Assembly: GCA_001802795.1 (NCBI GenBank)
Contig: MGZZ01000114.1
Location: 1-43,622, forward strand
Reading direction: 5' to 3'
DNA from: Ignavibacteria bacterium GWC2_36_12
Lineage (GTDB): Bacteria > Bacteroidota > Ignavibacteria > Ignavibacteriales > Ignavibacteriaceae
Length of the DNA: 43,622 bases
Shown: positions 14,229 to 40,126 of the stretch, piece by piece
How the letters are laid out: every line of letters begins with the position of its first letter
Position numbering within the stretch: the first letter of the stretch is position 1
Program-made: the position numbers and the translations under genes
Notes under the pieces: model-generated
Database searches by the model: none
Seen by the model: only the letters and a program-made list of their open reading frames with translations
What the model was told of the DNA's origin: nothing

Positions 14229-15929
14229 ATGACTAGACAATTACTGTTCGTAACAACATTAGTTTTACTAGTTGCTGTCTTTTTTAATAATCCTGCATAT
14301 GCTACTACGGAGCATGGTGATACTTTAGTTATTCATCAGGAAGATCAGGATGCAATGCCCTGGAATGAAATTATTGCTGCTGATACAAATGAAGACGGTT
14401 CCCGCAAACATTTGATTTATGAACTTGATCCGGATGGCTGGTATCCATTATCCGGAACACTTACGGCTGCTACTTATGATTTGCATATTGTAGGTGGAAA
14501 AAGAACTGCAGGTCAATCAAGACCAATTATTCTTACTCAGGATCCGTTCGGCGGATGGTTTATGTTAAGCGGCGGCCAAAATGTAACTTTCAAAGGTCTT
14601 CATATAATGCAAGCCGCTGAAACCATAGGTGGTAATATCGGTCCGTGGGCAAGATCCGGTTTGGAACTTACTGGTGTAAACAGCAAAGTTGTTTTTCATG
14701 ATTGTATCTGGGATTTTACTACCGGATTTACTGCTTTAATGAATAAGGAGGGTCTCAATCTTAAAGCAACCAATTCCCTTTTCCGTTTTAGCAAACCGCT
14801 TGATAACAGTGTATGGGCCGGACAGGGACTTGATATTAGTGCAGCACCATTAGATACTGTAATTATACAGAATTGTACATGGTATGGCGGCGGTCCTTTC
14901 ATGCTCAAAACATGGGAATCAACCGAGACATTTTTCAAAATGGACCATGTAACTATTGTCGACTTTGTTCAATGGCCAATTCATGGGGTACACTGGGTAA
15001 ATTCTGAGTTTACAAATAATTTGTTTTACAATGCATATACTATGGGAGAGGATTCTGCTCAGATAAAAGGACAGGACCCGGATTTGTTGCCGTTCGCTGT
15101 AATAAATGTTGATACAATTTTCTTTACTGAGTCAGGAATGGTGGACAACACGAGAGAAGCAGCCCGTAATTTAATTGTTAAAAATAACAACAATTTTCTA
15201 AGTCAAAGTATTAAAGATTACTGGGCAGTTGCTTCATCAGACCCTGCGACATATCACGAATTTAGCGCTCCGGATCCTGCAGTCAATGATGGTTTCATGA
15301 ATTCACGTACAGCAGCCATGTTCGCGGATAATACAACTTGGCCCGGTTTTGTACTTGAAAATACTACAAGTCTGGACCCACAATTTCAAGATTACTTTGA
15401 TTATTCTGACACATTAGTGAACTATTCCAAGTTTTATTATGTCTATGCCTGGCCGGATGCACAACCGACTACATTTATGACGGATCCGGATGGTGAACCA
15501 CTCATGCCTACTGATCCAATGGTTTATAATTTGAAGGTTACTAATGCTGCATTAAGAACAGCAAGTACAACAGGCGGACCAATTGGCGATTTAACATGGG
15601 AATTACCAGAGGGATATAACACTCCTGAAATAGTAACAGATGTAAAAGAAATCCATTCATTGCCAATAGAATTTGCTCTTAAACAAAACTATCCCAATCC
15701 GTTCAATCCGACTACTACCATCAACTTCTCAATCGGAAAGGCATCAAACGTTAAGTTGACGGTTTATAACACCCTGGGTCAGAAAGTTGCAAAGCTGGTT
15801 GATAACTTTATGAATGCCGGTGCTTACGAAGTTAAATTCAATGCAAGCCGCCTGGCTTCCGGTGTTTACTTATATCGTCTTGAGGCTGATAATTTTAAGC
15901 TGGATAAGAAGATGATGCTGCTAAAGTAA
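14229..15929 (+). CDS. T9SS type A sorting-domain protein with probable right-handed beta-helix N-terminal region
   Basis: Signal peptide; 'GGQNVTFKGLHIMQA', 'SLFRFSKPLD', 'VIIQNCTWYGG' helix-like repeats; tail 'LKQNYPNPFNPTTTINFSIGKASNVKLTVYNTLGQKV...LASGVYLYRLEADNFKLDKKMMLLK'. Confidence 0.85.
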   Translation: MTRQLLFVTTLVLLVAVFFNNPAYATTEHGDTLVIHQEDQDAMPWNEIIAADTNEDGSRKHLIYELDPDGWYPLSGTLTAATYDLHIVGGKRTAGQSRPIILTQDPFGGWFMLSGGQNVTFKGLHIMQAAETIGGNIGPWARSGLELTGVNSKVVFHDCIWDFTTGFTALMNKEGLNLKATNSLFRFSKPLDNSVWAGQGLDISAAPLDTVIIQNCTWYGGGPFMLKTWESTETFFKMDHVTIVDFVQWPIHGVHWVNSEFTNNLFYNAYTMGEDSAQIKGQDPDLLPFAVINVDTIFFTESGMVDNTREAARNLIVKNNNNFLSQSIKDYWAVASSDPATYHEFSAPDPAVNDGFMNSRTAAMFADNTTWPGFVLENTTSLDPQFQDYFDYSDTLVNYSKFYYVYAWPDAQPTTFMTDPDGEPLMPTDPMVYNLKVTNAALRTASTTGGPIGDLTWELPEGYNTPEIVTDVKEIHSLPIEFALKQNYPNPFNPTTTINFSIGKASNVKLTVYNTLGQKVAKLVDNFMNAGAYEVKFNASRLASGVYLYRLEADNFKLDKKMMLLK

Positions 15930-20695: not shown

Positions 20696-22318
20696 GTGAA
20701 AATAATTTTAAATTCCATAGGTTACAGATTGTTTTACTTTACTGTTTTAGCTCTGGTTGCAATGCCCTCAGTAATTTTGGTCGCCCAGACATTTACACGC
20801 TCCGTACTTCCTGGGAACCTGGACACGCCGTGGGAAATAATCTACGGACCAGATGATTTTCTCTGGATATCTGAAAGCGGAGGAAAAATATCACGGGTGA
20901 ATCCACAAAGCGGAGAACGGACGATCATATTCACAGCAAAAGATTATTATCCCGGTTCCATCCTCGAAAGACCTGATTGCGGAGCAAATATTGGAGCCGC
21001 AACCTATGGAATGGCTCTCCACCCGGATTTTGTTAACGAAGACAGCTCATACATATTTTTATTCTATTCATATAATAACGGAACAGATCAAAATCCCGAA
21101 ACCCTTTTTAAAATTGCACGGCTTAAGTGGGACGCTGAAAACGAAACCATAACAGACACCACAGATATTGTTACCGGTATATCCAATGGGTATGACCACT
21201 GGGGCGGGCGTATGATTGCCATAAAACAGAAAAGCAAGAATTACCTGTATTATTCGGTCGGTGATCATGGTTCCAATAACCCGGATTGTTATGAAGATTC
21301 ATTAGCCAATCCGAACAACTATACACAGGATACTGAAACAGATAACGGGAAAATACACCGGGTCTATCTTAATGGCAGCATACCTGAAGACAACCCAATA
21401 AGTGGAAATTCTTTTTTCACACGCGGACATCGCAATCCGCAGGGACTGGTATACAATTCTGTTCAGGATGTAATCTATGAAATAGAACACGGCCATAAAT
21501 CGGATGACGAAGTAAATATCCTGAAAAAAGGAATGAATTATGGCTGGAAGAATGTACATGGATACCATGACGGCAATATTGAAGGTGAATTAGACTACAT
21601 CAACAATTACACGCCAAATCCGGAAATTGAAGGTGATTCTTTAATAGAAGCTTTTTATTCCTGGGGTACAGAGGTTGTGAATAGCAGCAACAATTCGTTA
21701 TGGCCAACTGTTGCGCCGTCAGATGGTTTTTACTATGCGGACAGCACCATTCCTGAGTGGACAAACAGTCTGCTGGTTGTCACCTTGAAGAATGGAAACG
21801 TCACAGATCAGGAACTATACCAATTTAAACTTACAGAAGATGGTAAGGGACTGGCAGATTCCACCGAAGAAAATCCCAACCCCAGGAAGTTTTTTGCCGG
21901 GGATCAGAATAATAACGGACGGCTGCGCGATTTAACATTCTCCCCGGATGGTTCCACTCTTTACCTGATAACCAATAACTGGAACGGCGTTAACCCGATT
22001 ATTGTTTATAAATACGATGCACCAGTTTCCATATCTGAAAAAGAATACCATCCTGCAGTATTTGGGCTAAGCCAAAACTATCCAAATCCATTCAACCCGT
22101 CAACAACAATTACGTTTAGTTTGCCGGAAAAAGAAAACGTGAGATTGTTTGTTTATGATATACTTGGAAGAGAAATAATAAAACTTGCCGACGGCATATA
22201 TGAAGCCGGCGAACATAAGATAGTATTAAACGGAAGTAATTTACCAAGCGGAATATATTTCTATAGAATAGAAGCCAGGAATTTTTCAAAGACTAAAAAA
22301 TTAGTATTAACTAAATAA
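20696..22318 (+). CDS. PQQ-dependent sugar dehydrogenase (glucose/sorbosone dehydrogenase-like) with T9SS type A sorting domain
   Basis: 'LDTPWEIIYGPDDFLWISESGGKISRVNPQSGE', 'FTRGHRNPQGLVYN', 'YEIEHGHKSDDEVNILKKGMNYGW'; tail 'LSQNYPNPFNPSTTITFSL...SGIYFYRIEARNFSKTKKLVLTK'. Confidence 0.92.
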   Translation: MKIILNSIGYRLFYFTVLALVAMPSVILVAQTFTRSVLPGNLDTPWEIIYGPDDFLWISESGGKISRVNPQSGERTIIFTAKDYYPGSILERPDCGANIGAATYGMALHPDFVNEDSSYIFLFYSYNNGTDQNPETLFKIARLKWDAENETITDTTDIVTGISNGYDHWGGRMIAIKQKSKNYLYYSVGDHGSNNPDCYEDSLANPNNYTQDTETDNGKIHRVYLNGSIPEDNPISGNSFFTRGHRNPQGLVYNSVQDVIYEIEHGHKSDDEVNILKKGMNYGWKNVHGYHDGNIEGELDYINNYTPNPEIEGDSLIEAFYSWGTEVVNSSNNSLWPTVAPSDGFYYADSTIPEWTNSLLVVTLKNGNVTDQELYQFKLTEDGKGLADSTEENPNPRKFFAGDQNNNGRLRDLTFSPDGSTLYLITNNWNGVNPIIVYKYDAPVSISEKEYHPAVFGLSQNYPNPFNPSTTITFSLPEKENVRLFVYDILGREIIKLADGIYEAGEHKIVLNGSNLPSGIYFYRIEARNFSKTKKLVLTK

Positions 22319-23866: not shown

Positions 23867-24172
23867 GTGCCTGATGATGATTTGAATTATTTGGTCCCAC
23901 ATAACATCCGCACTGTTCTGGAGAAAGCAAAGAAAGATGCAGGAAACAAAGACGTGAGAATTTCCGGCGGGGCATCAGTTATACAGCAATATCTTAACGC
24001 TGGATTGGTTGATGAACTTACGCTTCACACTGCACCGATAATTCTCGGAAAAGGTGTCGGCTTGTTTGAAAAAATTGAAAGAGAAAAATTCTCTTTGGAA
24101 GTTACAAATGTAGTTAATTCTCCTTCTGTTACACATTTGTTTTACAAGGTTATAAATTATAACAAAAAATAG
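23867..24172 (+). pseudogene. C-terminal fragment of a dihydrofolate reductase/RibD C-terminal-like protein
   Basis: 'ISGGASVIQQYLNAGLVDELTLHTAPIILGKGVGLFEKI' is the second half of the family; N-terminal half absent; in-frame TGA just upstream. Confidence 0.8.
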
Positions 24173-24179
24173 CCAGACA

Positions 24180-25691
24180 TTATTTTACTAACAACGCCAC
24201 ATTCTCTATATGAAAGGTATGCGGGAACATATCGACAGGTCTCATCTTAATTAATTTATAGCCTGCCTTGCCGGTAGGCAGGCCAGCTTCTGAAAATAAT
24301 TTAATATCTCTTGCCTGCGTAGCGGGGTTGCAGCTTACATAAACAATTTTTTCAGGATTAATTTTGATTACATCTTCAACTGTGTTTTTGTGTAAGCCGC
24401 TTCTCGGCGGATCGAGAATAATTAAAGATGGTTTGGGGATTTTACCTGCCTTGCCTGCCTTGTCGGCAGACAGGCCGGTAGGCAGGTTCTCTTCAATTAG
24501 CGGGAGAAATGATTTGTAAAGATCGGCGTTAAAGAAGTGAACATTATTAATATCATTTAATTCAGCATTTACTTTTGAATCTTCAATTGCAGATTCAACC
24601 GACTCGAAAGCATAAACCTCTTTTACATTTTTGGAAATATAAATTGCAATTGTTCCCGCACCTGAATAAAGGTCATAAACTATTTCATCACCCTTAAATT
24701 CGGCAAAGTCTAAAGCGGTTTTGTAAAGATTTTCTGCCTGTAAAGTATTAGTCTGGAAAAATGAATTTGCGCTTATCTGAAAGGTATATTCGCCTATCAT
24801 ATCTGTAATAAATCCTTCTCCATAAAGGAGATTTTCATAATCTCCTACTGCAACAGAGGATTTCTTTTCATTAATATTATTTACAATTGTTGTTATTTCA
24901 GGAAAAGATTTTATCAGTTCATTAGCATAACTTTTTATTAAAGCGCTATCTTCATTAGCCGTAACTATGTTTACCATTAAATCTTTAGTATGATAAGCCT
25001 GCCGTATTACAAGATTGCGCAGAAATCCCGAATGAGTTACGGTAGAATAAGGCTGGATATTTCTTTCTTTGAAAAAATTCCTTGTGAAGTTTAATATCCT
25101 GTAACTCAATTCAGATTGAAGATAACAAATGTCAATATCGAGAACCTTATCATAAATATTCGGAACATGCAGTCCCAAAGCAAAATTCATATCTGTTTTT
25201 TCTTTAGATATTTCATCTTCAGTGAGCCATCTTTTATCAGAAAAAGAGAACTCCATCTTATTCCTGTAAAAGAAAGTATTCTTTGACGGGATAATCGAAA
25301 GCATTTCAAAACCCGCTTTACCTGTCTTGTCGGCAGACAGGTCTGAAAAGCCACCAAGCTTTTTGAAAATTTCCTCAACCTGCTGCTGTTTATATTTAAT
25401 TTGTGCTTCGTAAGAAAGATCCTGCTGTTTGCATCCCCCGCAGGTTCCAAAGTATTTGCATCTTGCTTCAACTCTTTCTGATGATGGAAAAATAATCTCT
25501 GTTGTTTTAGCTTCGGCAAAGGATTTCTTAATCTTTATAAGTTTTGCCTTTACTTTATCGCCGGGATAAGAATTTTGCACGAATACGACAAAGTTTTTTT
25601 CATCTCCACTTTCTCTCCCTATCCTGGAAATACCTTTCCCTTCAAAAGCGTAGCCTTCAATATCAAGTTCTAATAAATCGCCTTTTTTCAT
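24180..25691 (-). CDS. rlmD: 23S rRNA (uracil-5-)-methyltransferase RlmD/RumA-like
   Basis: TRAM-like N-terminus; 'CKYFGTCGGCKQQDLSYEAQIKYK'; 'DLYSGAGTIAIYIS'; 'LIILDPPRSGLHKNTV'; 'IVYVSCNPATQARDI'; 'MFPHTFHIENVALLVK'. Confidence 0.93.
   Translation of the reverse strand: MKKGDLLELDIEGYAFEGKGISRIGRESGDEKNFVVFVQNSYPGDKVKAKLIKIKKSFAEAKTTEIIFPSSERVEARCKYFGTCGGCKQQDLSYEAQIKYKQQQVEEIFKKLGGFSDLSADKTGKAGFEMLSIIPSKNTFFYRNKMEFSFSDKRWLTEDEISKEKTDMNFALGLHVPNIYDKVLDIDICYLQSELSYRILNFTRNFFKERNIQPYSTVTHSGFLRNLVIRQAYHTKDLMVNIVTANEDSALIKSYANELIKSFPEITTIVNNINEKKSSVAVGDYENLLYGEGFITDMIGEYTFQISANSFFQTNTLQAENLYKTALDFAEFKGDEIVYDLYSGAGTIAIYISKNVKEVYAFESVESAIEDSKVNAELNDINNVHFFNADLYKSFLPLIEENLPTGLSADKAGKAGKIPKPSLIILDPPRSGLHKNTVEDVIKINPEKIVYVSCNPATQARDIKLFSEAGLPTGKAGYKLIKMRPVDMFPHTFHIENVALLVK
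24261..24284. repeat. GC-rich palindromic element copy A, in frame inside the rlmD-like gene
   Basis: GCCTGCCTTGCCGGTAGGCAGGCC; 8-bp arms GCCTGCCT/AGGCAGGC; encodes 'GLPTGKAG' on the minus strand. Confidence 0.85.
24444..24487. repeat. GC-rich palindromic element copy B, nested (element inside element), in frame inside the rlmD-like gene
   Basis: ACCTGCCTTG[CCTGCCTTGTCGGCAGACAGG]CCGGTAGGCAGGT; removing the bracketed 21 bp restores the copy-A sequence; encodes 'LPTG[LSADKAG]KAG'. Confidence 0.85.
25320..25342. repeat. GC-rich palindromic element copy C, in frame inside the rlmD-like gene
   Basis: ACCTGTCTTGTCGGCAGACAGGT; perfect 8-bp arms; encodes 'DLSADKTG' on the minus strand. Confidence 0.85.
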
Positions 25692-37411: not shown

Positions 37412-40126
37412 ATGAAGTTTTTATTTACTGTTTTTTTCTCATTCCTTTTATTATTTCCTGCTTATTCTCAGAATTATAAGCAGGTTAAAATATACGTTCA
37501 GGATAAGGAAGATATTAATTCGCTTTACGAATTGGGCATTGAGTTCGATCACGCCGAATACACTAAAGATAATGCCGTTATCATCTTTATCAGTGATAAT
37601 GAATTTTCTATTCTTAAAACTTACGGCTACAAGTATGAAATTATTATCGATGACTGGTTTGAATATTATAATAAGCTGCCGAAGCTGACTAAAAGCCAGA
37701 AGAAAAATTATTCCGAGCAAAGCCAAAAAAGTTATAACGTCACAGGTTTCGGTTTCGGTTCAATGGGAGGATTTTATACTTTAGGCGAGGTTATTGCCGA
37801 ACTTGATACGATGAGAATGCTATATCCAAACCTTATAACACAGAAGGATTCTATAGGAACTACAATAGAAGATCGTCCGGTTTATGTTGTAAAAATCTCG
37901 GATAATCCTGAAACAGACGAGAGCGAGCCGGGAGTTTTGTACACTGCGCTTCATCATGCCCGTGAGCCGGAGAGCATGATGCAATTGATATATTTTATGT
38001 ATTACCTGTTGGAGAATTATAATACCGATCCCTCCGTTCAATTCTTAGTTGATAACAGGGAACTATACTTTATTCCTATTGTTAATCCCGATGGCTATGA
38101 ATATAACAGGCAGACTAACCCTGATGGCGGAGGCTTCTGGAGAAAGAACAGGAGAAAAATCGGGAGTGATTTTGGAGTAGATTTAAACCGGAATTACGGT
38201 CCAACGACATATTGGAATGCAACAAACGGCGGCTCAAGTTTAAGCTCCAACAGTGAAACGTATCGGGGCACCGCTCCGTTCTCTGAACCGGAAACTCAAA
38301 ACATCAGAGATTTTCTGACTGGCAAAGGTATTAAGAATGCGCTTAATTATCATACTTATGGAAATTACCTGATATATCCTTACGGTGCGTTAGAAATAGA
38401 AACTCCCGATTCTCTTATTTACAGGGAACTTGCATCCGATATGACCAGATACAATAATTATACACATGGGACAGACCAGCAAACCGTCGGTTATTCTACC
38501 AGGGGAAACAGTGATGATTATTTTTATGACGGCGATGTTTCTTTAAACGGCGGAAAAATCTTTGCTATGACTCCTGAAGTCGGTTCTTCTTCGGATGGAT
38601 TCTGGCCTTTGCAAAGCCGTATTTTTCCTCTTGCCGAGGAGAATCTCGCTCCAAATATTTATTATGCATGGGTTGCAGGCGATTATGTTGCATTAGAAAA
38701 CACAAATTTTTCTCAACAGTTTTTTCTCCCGGGAGATGTTGTTGAATTTAATGTTTCAATAAAGAATAAAGGTTTGGCTTCGGCTTATAATGTTTCCGTG
38801 GAATTAAATTCTCTTAATACTTTTGCAGTTGTTGATGCAAATCTTACTGTAATAGACTCAATTCCAGCCCGGGAATCTGTTGATATATCTACACCGTTTT
38901 CATTTACAATATCGAATGATGCGCTTGCCGATGAGAAAATAAAGTTATTGCTTATTTCCAGGACAGAAGGTATAGAAATGTCAAAAGATACGATAGAAAT
39001 TATCGTGGGCATACCTGAATATGCTTTTCAGGATACTGCGGATAATCCTTTGGAGAACTGGATTGTAACAAGTACTCCATCAAATCCTAAATGGGAAGCA
39101 ACTACATCTACATATTTTTCCAGCCCCACTTCTTATACGGATAGTAAATCGGGAAATTATGTTGATAATGCAACAGTTACTATGACAATGAAAAACCAGG
39201 TTGATTTATCGGGATTTCACAATCCCCGGCTCAGATTCTGGACCAGGTATGACATTGAAGGTGATTGGGATTACGGGCAGGTTAAAATTTCAACCGATGA
39301 TGGAGTAACCTGGATTCCTCTCGCGGGTCAGTACACTGAACAGGGCACCGGAAGTTTTCAGCCGGATGGTCAACCTGTTTATGATGGTAACAGGCTTGAC
39401 TGGGTCTATGAAGATATAAACCTTGCAAGTTATTCTTCTAACCAGATTAAATTAAGATTTGAATTGAAAAGCGATGACTATGTTAATCGCGATGGCTGGT
39501 ATATAGATGATATCGCCATAGTTAGGTACGACATATTACCTGTAGAGTTAAACTCGTTCACAGCAAATCTTTCAGAAGATAAAGTTTATCTTAGCTGGTC
39601 TACGGCAACGGAGTTAAACAATAATGGTTTTGAAATTGAGCATGCGTTGTTGAAAGAAAAAGGGAAAGAAAATCTTCTGTACAGAACCATTGGTTTTGTT
39701 AAAGGGCAAGGTAACAGCCAGGAAACTTCGAATTATAGTTTTGTAGATAAATTTCCCGAGAGAGGAATATCTTATTACAGGCTTAAGCAAATTGATTTTA
39801 ACGGTGATACTAAATTTTTCGGACCGGTTTCGGTCGAGTATTCCGGGGTTCTTGATTATGAACTATCTCAAAACTTTCCCAATCCATTTAATCCGTCTAC
39901 TAAAATAAGCTTTTCTATTCCTAAAACCGGTCACGTAACGCTTAAGGTTTACAACGTTCTTGGGATTGAAATTGCAAGGTTATTAAATAATTATATTGAA
40001 GCCGGCAAACACTCAGTTGATTTTTCAACGGAATCATTGGAAAATAAAATCGGGGCAGGTGTCTATTTTTACACTTTAACTGCTGGCAATTTTACTCAAA
40101 CAAAAAAGATGATAATTTTAAAATAA
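37412..40126 (+). CDS. M14 family zinc carboxypeptidase with T9SS type A sorting domain
   Basis: 'YTALHHAREPESM' HxxE, 'GVDLNRNYG', 'TPEVG'; tail 'LSQNFPNPFNPSTKISFSI...GVYFYTLTAGNFTQTKKMIILK'. Confidence 0.94.
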   Translation: MKFLFTVFFSFLLLFPAYSQNYKQVKIYVQDKEDINSLYELGIEFDHAEYTKDNAVIIFISDNEFSILKTYGYKYEIIIDDWFEYYNKLPKLTKSQKKNYSEQSQKSYNVTGFGFGSMGGFYTLGEVIAELDTMRMLYPNLITQKDSIGTTIEDRPVYVVKISDNPETDESEPGVLYTALHHAREPESMMQLIYFMYYLLENYNTDPSVQFLVDNRELYFIPIVNPDGYEYNRQTNPDGGGFWRKNRRKIGSDFGVDLNRNYGPTTYWNATNGGSSLSSNSETYRGTAPFSEPETQNIRDFLTGKGIKNALNYHTYGNYLIYPYGALEIETPDSLIYRELASDMTRYNNYTHGTDQQTVGYSTRGNSDDYFYDGDVSLNGGKIFAMTPEVGSSSDGFWPLQSRIFPLAEENLAPNIYYAWVAGDYVALENTNFSQQFFLPGDVVEFNVSIKNKGLASAYNVSVELNSLNTFAVVDANLTVIDSIPARESVDISTPFSFTISNDALADEKIKLLLISRTEGIEMSKDTIEIIVGIPEYAFQDTADNPLENWIVTSTPSNPKWEATTSTYFSSPTSYTDSKSGNYVDNATVTMTMKNQVDLSGFHNPRLRFWTRYDIEGDWDYGQVKISTDDGVTWIPLAGQYTEQGTGSFQPDGQPVYDGNRLDWVYEDINLASYSSNQIKLRFELKSDDYVNRDGWYIDDIAIVRYDILPVELNSFTANLSEDKVYLSWSTATELNNNGFEIEHALLKEKGKENLLYRTIGFVKGQGNSQETSNYSFVDKFPERGISYYRLKQIDFNGDTKFFGPVSVEYSGVLDYELSQNFPNPFNPSTKISFSIPKTGHVTLKVYNVLGIEIARLLNNYIEAGKHSVDFSTESLENKIGAGVYFYTLTAGNFTQTKKMIILK

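Follow-up and report, generated by a model that had tools for sequence, protein, structure and literature searches.

A 21-bp mobile hairpin as the probable source of three in-frame peptide insertions in an Ignavibacteria rRNA methyltransferase

How does a single conserved rRNA methyltransferase gene come to carry three copies of a G/C-rich palindrome, all of them lying in frame with its reading? The gene in question lies on the minus strand (24180..25691) of the analysed window, by which we mean the whole stretch of 43,622 nucleotides on contig C114 of the 3.83-Mb draft genome (194 contigs) of Ignavibacteria bacterium GWC2_36_12. It is an intact ORF of 503 aa and was assigned to rlmD, encoding the 23S rRNA uracil-1939 C5-methyltransferase, by its profile match (TIGR00479, 323.9 bits against a cutoff of 183.6) and by a structure model whose fold matches the RlmCD and RumA structures. 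The catalytic and iron-sulphur motifs are retained, and a dN/dS value of 0.08 against a congener indicates strong purifying selection. The initial annotation had described three in-frame copies of a palindrome in this gene. This is borne out, as the RlmD ORF is intact and all three insertions share one codon phase. The sites had been placed correctly, with limits drawn one to three bases too wide. Insertion A (24262..24282, minus strand) is a single 21-mer read as LPTGKAG (aa 471-477). Insertion B (24445..24486, minus strand) had been taken for a single element; it is a palindromic insert, but it consists of two nested 21-mers that together form a 42-bp composite encoding LPTGLSADKAGKAG (aa 403-416). 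The outer 21-mer (CCTGCCTTG/CCGGTAGGCAGG) is split after base 9 by an inner 21-mer of the LSADKAG subtype (24454..24474, minus strand), recognised by palindrome pattern match and by the nested-copy reading. Insertion C (25321..25341, minus strand), identified by pattern match and comparison with congener DNA, is a single 21-mer read as LSADKTG (aa 118-124). The peptide originally assigned to this site is indeed an insert, but its three KAG codons probably belong to the host sequence. With up to two mismatches allowed, the palindrome pattern had no match in the window beyond sites A, B and C and none in 100 shuffles of the window. Three sites within one gene would be rare if insertion were uniform, with a probability of 0.00035 in a simulation based on approximate gene lengths.

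All three peptides are specific to the source genome: in the alignment they are missing from 28 homologues in relatives, and the RlmD of the congener (G001), with 84% identity, lacks all of them. At site B the empty site can be read directly, with GAGAA-(42 bp)-TAAA in the source genome against GAGAATAAA in congener DNA. At site A the join GCTGG-(21 bp)-CTAT corresponds to GCTGGCTAT in the DNA of a relative. Site C was set at 21 bp because its removal restores the congener length; a first protein alignment had given a 10-aa insertion here, which the congener DNA comparison ruled out in favour of 7 aa. DNA comparison revealed no target-site duplication at the rlmD sites with a readable empty site, which speaks against a MITE with terminal inverted repeats. 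Structural data agree with the homologue alignment at site A, where a 7-aa gap appears in the alignment against PDB 5xj1, and the residues are missing from Streptococcus RlmCD too. In the RlmD model, pLDDT values below 50 over at least three residues occur only at 119-126, 403-415 and 470-474, that is, at the three inserts, and each insert falls between secondary-structure elements. The inserts add short loops that are apparently harmless to RlmD. Such differences in insertion between species suggest that the palindrome is, or has been, mobile.

The element is a 21-bp near-palindrome with the stem CCTGCCT/AGGCAGG and a 7-nt loop. Folded as DNA, the 21-mer of copy A gives a 7-bp stem and a 7-nt loop and beats shuffled sequences (z about -3); the LSADKAG subtype has unequal arms and folds differently from copy A. 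Further copies, which the initial annotation had expected, are abundant in the source genome: 28 exact half-site matches, and about 77 matches per strand at two mismatches, a loose-pattern count that is partial beyond contig C68 and in which the near symmetry of the element causes many matches to be scored twice, once per strand. The reversed controls gave none in either search. A relative assembled into a single contig (G003) carries 68-69 copies. The source genome and one relative each hold roughly 50-110, and in most other genera of the family copies are few or absent. The zero-mismatch form was found in 39 of 399 genomes of a phylum sample, and the exact 21-mer in at least 113 stretches of GTDB genomes belonging to Bacteroidota, Ignavibacteria, Marinimicrobia, Patescibacteria and others, isolates included. 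As judged from these genome sequences, the element is multicopy and patchily distributed across FCB and other phyla. A phage or plasmid vehicle was considered and rejected, given that 2.9 million viral contigs yielded 10 stretches and that phage and plasmid records give partial, weak matches only. Several copies, some of them head to head, were noted in IMGVR_UViG_3300025106_000007 (L332, L336) and IMGVR_UViG_3300009430_000201 (L335), which are labelled viral and may be bacterial DNA.

Nesting is not confined to insertion B. Composites of 42 bp, with an inner 21-mer in the loop of the outer one and splits of 9/12, 12/9 and 13/8, were found at several loci, including one in the congener. The LPD-LSADKAG-GKAG composite is identical in two unrelated genes, those for Lgt and a GH43 enzyme, and hence composites may move as units. 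Other hairpins seem to be entered as well: a stricter stem count at the junction places 13 of 103 intergenic copies on the tip of a different hairpin as compared with 9 of 625 random sites. The hairpin-loop signal rests on this minority of copies and on the second of two measures; by the first, the base pairs across the joined flanks in an MFE fold were no different between intergenic copies and random sites. Copy A and the outer part of B are the sole two members of their subtype among the copies read, which suggests local copying. We also noted that a Gottesmanbacteria locus (L203, Patescibacteria) and a locus of the source genome (L001) carry the 21-mer at the identical point, GATGCTGAAA^...TTCAGCAT, of an identical outer hairpin, which suggests shared targets or transfer of a composite.

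We consider it very probable that the RlmD peptides are insertions of a 21-bp mobile REP-like hairpin. Comparison shows that the element inserts in 21-bp units, without target duplication where the empty site is readable, and that copies lie in the loops of other copies, giving 42-bp composites, and, above chance, in the loops of other hairpins. According to our proposal, landing would occur in all phases and orientations. Purifying selection would then keep those copies that encode Cys-free, short and flexible peptides in surface loops and that split the host codon after its second base, so that the inserts would be tolerated passengers without a host function. New copies may arise locally, as the subtype shared by A and the outer part of B illustrates. 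In the least certain step, the element would move as single-stranded hairpin DNA, and a Y1/HUH transposase of the RAYT (TnpA-REP) type, acting in trans, would do the cutting and joining.

Such enzymes are at hand, as the source genome contains eight Y1_Tnp genes. It also contains a second repeat of the GTAG type, AACCTCTACGAGGTT, of which five copies have the 21-mer inserted at a single fixed point (G000 contigs C45, C96, C105 and C123; L143, L153, L154 and L132); two of these five flank a RAYT gene. One of the eight RAYT genes is flanked on both sides by its own GTAG repeat with the element, and a second has copies nearby. Overall, proximity of the element to Y1_Tnp genes is marginal (p about 0.03), most Y1_Tnp genes, whether of the source genome or of related ones, lack a copy in their vicinity, and copies are few or absent in relatives that possess RAYTs. 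A GTAG within 9 nt of a copy was found in 5/66, 2/49 and 2/120 cases, which is near or below the control except for the five G000 composites, and a CGTC tag on the copies occurs at chance level. A RAYT-type single-strand transposase acting in trans is our best guess for the mobilising enzyme, though a weakly supported one; the single-strand chemistry of Y1 enzymes would fit both the absent target duplication and the preference for loops. It is conceivable, if rather unlikely, that no transposase is involved and that the hairpin DNA itself prompts the copying, through replication slippage, template switching or gene conversion. The nested and local sister copies would be expected from such processes, no dedicated enzyme was found, and the missing target duplication would agree with them as well. 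However, copies are spread over many contigs and unrelated genes, and an identical 21-mer occurs across phyla, which goes beyond what local copying alone would produce.

We counted codon phases for copies located 20 aa or more within an ORF of at least 250 aa, using long ORFs as gene proxies. The first base of the element falls on codon position 3 in 19 of 23 cases in the source genome, 15/18 in G003 and 11/17 in other organisms; 33 further loci gave 4 of 9. The favoured phase thus accounts for 34/41 copies in the source genome and G003 (p=9e-11) and for 49/67 overall (p=3e-11), the wide set taken alone being weaker (15/26). G003 includes duplicated paralogues that share one insert, so events are fewer than copies. 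Some long ORFs in high-GC genomes are spurious, which would dilute the phase bias and not produce it. Copies that lie in no ORF of at least 120 aa are uniform in phase (35/111 in the favoured one). The predicted reading in the favoured phase is LPxxxAG or LSADKAG, and copies within genes are read in this way because a length of 21 bp is divisible by three and no stop interrupts the favoured reading. Readings that contain cysteine are rare (10/58 against an expected 62%), and within the favoured phase the asymmetric type shows a ratio of 23:1 for the Cys-free orientation. Copies are depleted about twofold in ORFs, where about half of them still reside. Could the phase bias instead reflect a target-site preference, and not selection on the protein? 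We regard this as improbable. The flanks of intergenic copies do favour a purine at -1, but when these flanks were applied to the codons of the window they predicted a fraction of 0.319 (32%) in the favoured phase, where 78% was observed; a target preference also leaves the 23:1 orientation and the avoidance of cysteine unexplained. Phase bias, unphased intergenic copies and cysteine avoidance together point to a mobile hairpin filtered by protein tolerance, and random landing followed by loss of harmful readings is the simplest account.

Besides rlmD, copies were found within genes for UvrA, Mfd, ProRS, ribulokinase, Lgt, MazG, an ABC transporter and several glycoside hydrolases. Compared with eight relatives and with mycobacterial Mfd, the Mfd protein is longer by exactly 14 residues (42 bp), and Lgt exceeds three relatives by 14 (42 bp). 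The 7-aa insert of ProRS was seen against a PDB homologue; in comparison with relatives, the sequence also diverges somewhat in this part. Copies upstream of likely start codons (GlyRS, C49; NADH dehydrogenase, C47) were left out of the protein inserts, and two copies in signal-peptide regions (C33, C158) fall outside the 20-aa margin or right on its border. At two further loci (L161, L163) an N-terminal copy directly precedes a hydrophobic stretch, KSRLSADKAGFAGK, that resembles a signal peptide. The recurrence of one peptide type in many proteins might be taken to mean that the peptides are useful, as a selected loop, a regulatory mRNA hairpin or a binding motif, and a hairpin is formed by the DNA and presumably by the mRNA. 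We consider this even less probable than a target preference, as the proteins and sites are unrelated, close relatives lack the peptides, copies are depleted in ORFs and the inserts are disordered in the structure model. An assembly artefact or chance G/C-rich sequence can practically be dismissed: the window does come from a draft assembly, but the single-contig genome G003 behaves alike with its 15/18 copies in phase, exact copies occur in isolate genomes, and shuffled and reversed controls gave none.

The initial annotation had compared the palindrome to Rickettsia palindromic elements (RPEs) and had proposed to check for insertions specific to the lineage, a frame bias and a location in surface loops. 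The lineage specificity, the frame bias and the location in loops of the structure model all hold, as does a codon-compatible length. Neither of the findings it had named as refuting was made: the residues are missing from relatives and from distant PDB homologues, and the genome contains many further copies. The likeness to RPEs is one of behaviour and not of membership, because length, tag and apparently sequence differ. RPEs are palindromic repeats of 105-146 bp in obligate intracellular Rickettsia that occur between genes and in frame within protein genes, whose products still work (PMC2229807). Our element likewise sits in frame in conserved genes; by description, however, it is five to seven times shorter (21 bp, composites 42 bp), apparently has another sequence, inserts into its own loop and is found in different phyla. 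RPE-4 and RPE-6 are members of CGTC REP families (PMC3733652), whereas the 21-bp element is without this tag. REPs tagged with GTAG or CGTC are palindromes of 20-40 bp with many copies, some in genes, many of which serve repair and which also include tRNA synthetase genes (Di Nocera 2013, PMC3733652). Our element is also a short, dispersed, multicopy palindrome and is found in the repair genes uvrA and mfd too, but most of its copies lack GTAG/CGTC, about half of them lie in ORFs and no RAYT is a consistent neighbour. The Y1 transposases of TnpA-REP/RAYT and IS200/IS605 systems cut single-stranded hairpins, with the GTAG tetranucleotide involved in recognition or site choice (PMC8266576). Insertion without target duplication is shared with IS200/IS605, whereas the element lacks the GTAG important for REP cutting. 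PARCELs are palindromic DNA that adds an in-frame peptide, with a patchiness that suggests transfer (PMC2996958); they form tandem arrays of 25 residues, unlike the 21-bp element. The palindromes of Wolbachia (WPE) and Methanocaldococcus, likened here by description, provide in-frame peptide segments as well. A full-text literature search, with most subscription papers outside its reach, returned no match to the DNA or the peptides.

In the papers covered, protein-coding palindromes are described mainly from intracellular Rickettsia and Wolbachia and from one archaeon, and here we find a far smaller unit in several other phyla. With somewhat less than even confidence we put forward a broader picture: an extremely small mobile hairpin that would insert as single-stranded DNA into loops, its own included, and cross phyla, leaving LPxxxAG/LSADKAG loop peptides in essential proteins, and this in bacteria other than intracellular symbionts; selection against cysteine readings would have determined codon phase and orientation. 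The element leaves readable records: its empty sites are clean, its copies can be nested, and its codon-phase bias can serve as a gauge of protein tolerance. It thus offers a natural experiment on where proteins accept insertions of seven residues and poses the testable question which enzyme moves a 21-mer. For annotation, LPxGKAG/LSADKAG stretches in proteins of these phyla should be treated as inserts and not as conserved motifs.

Other features of the window were noted in passing. A truncated dihydrofolate-reductase-like ORF (23867-24172, plus strand), placed in this family by eye, terminates just short of the rlmD stop codon and looks like a gene remnant. At 504-562 lies a REP-like hairpin, TTGTCACACTGAGCCCG.../...CGGGCTCAGACCGACAA, that is unrelated to the 21-mer. 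Finally, a repeat common to three gene ends (15668-15721, 22057-22110 and 39853-39906) appears to encode a YPNPFNPST-like C-terminal sorting signal.
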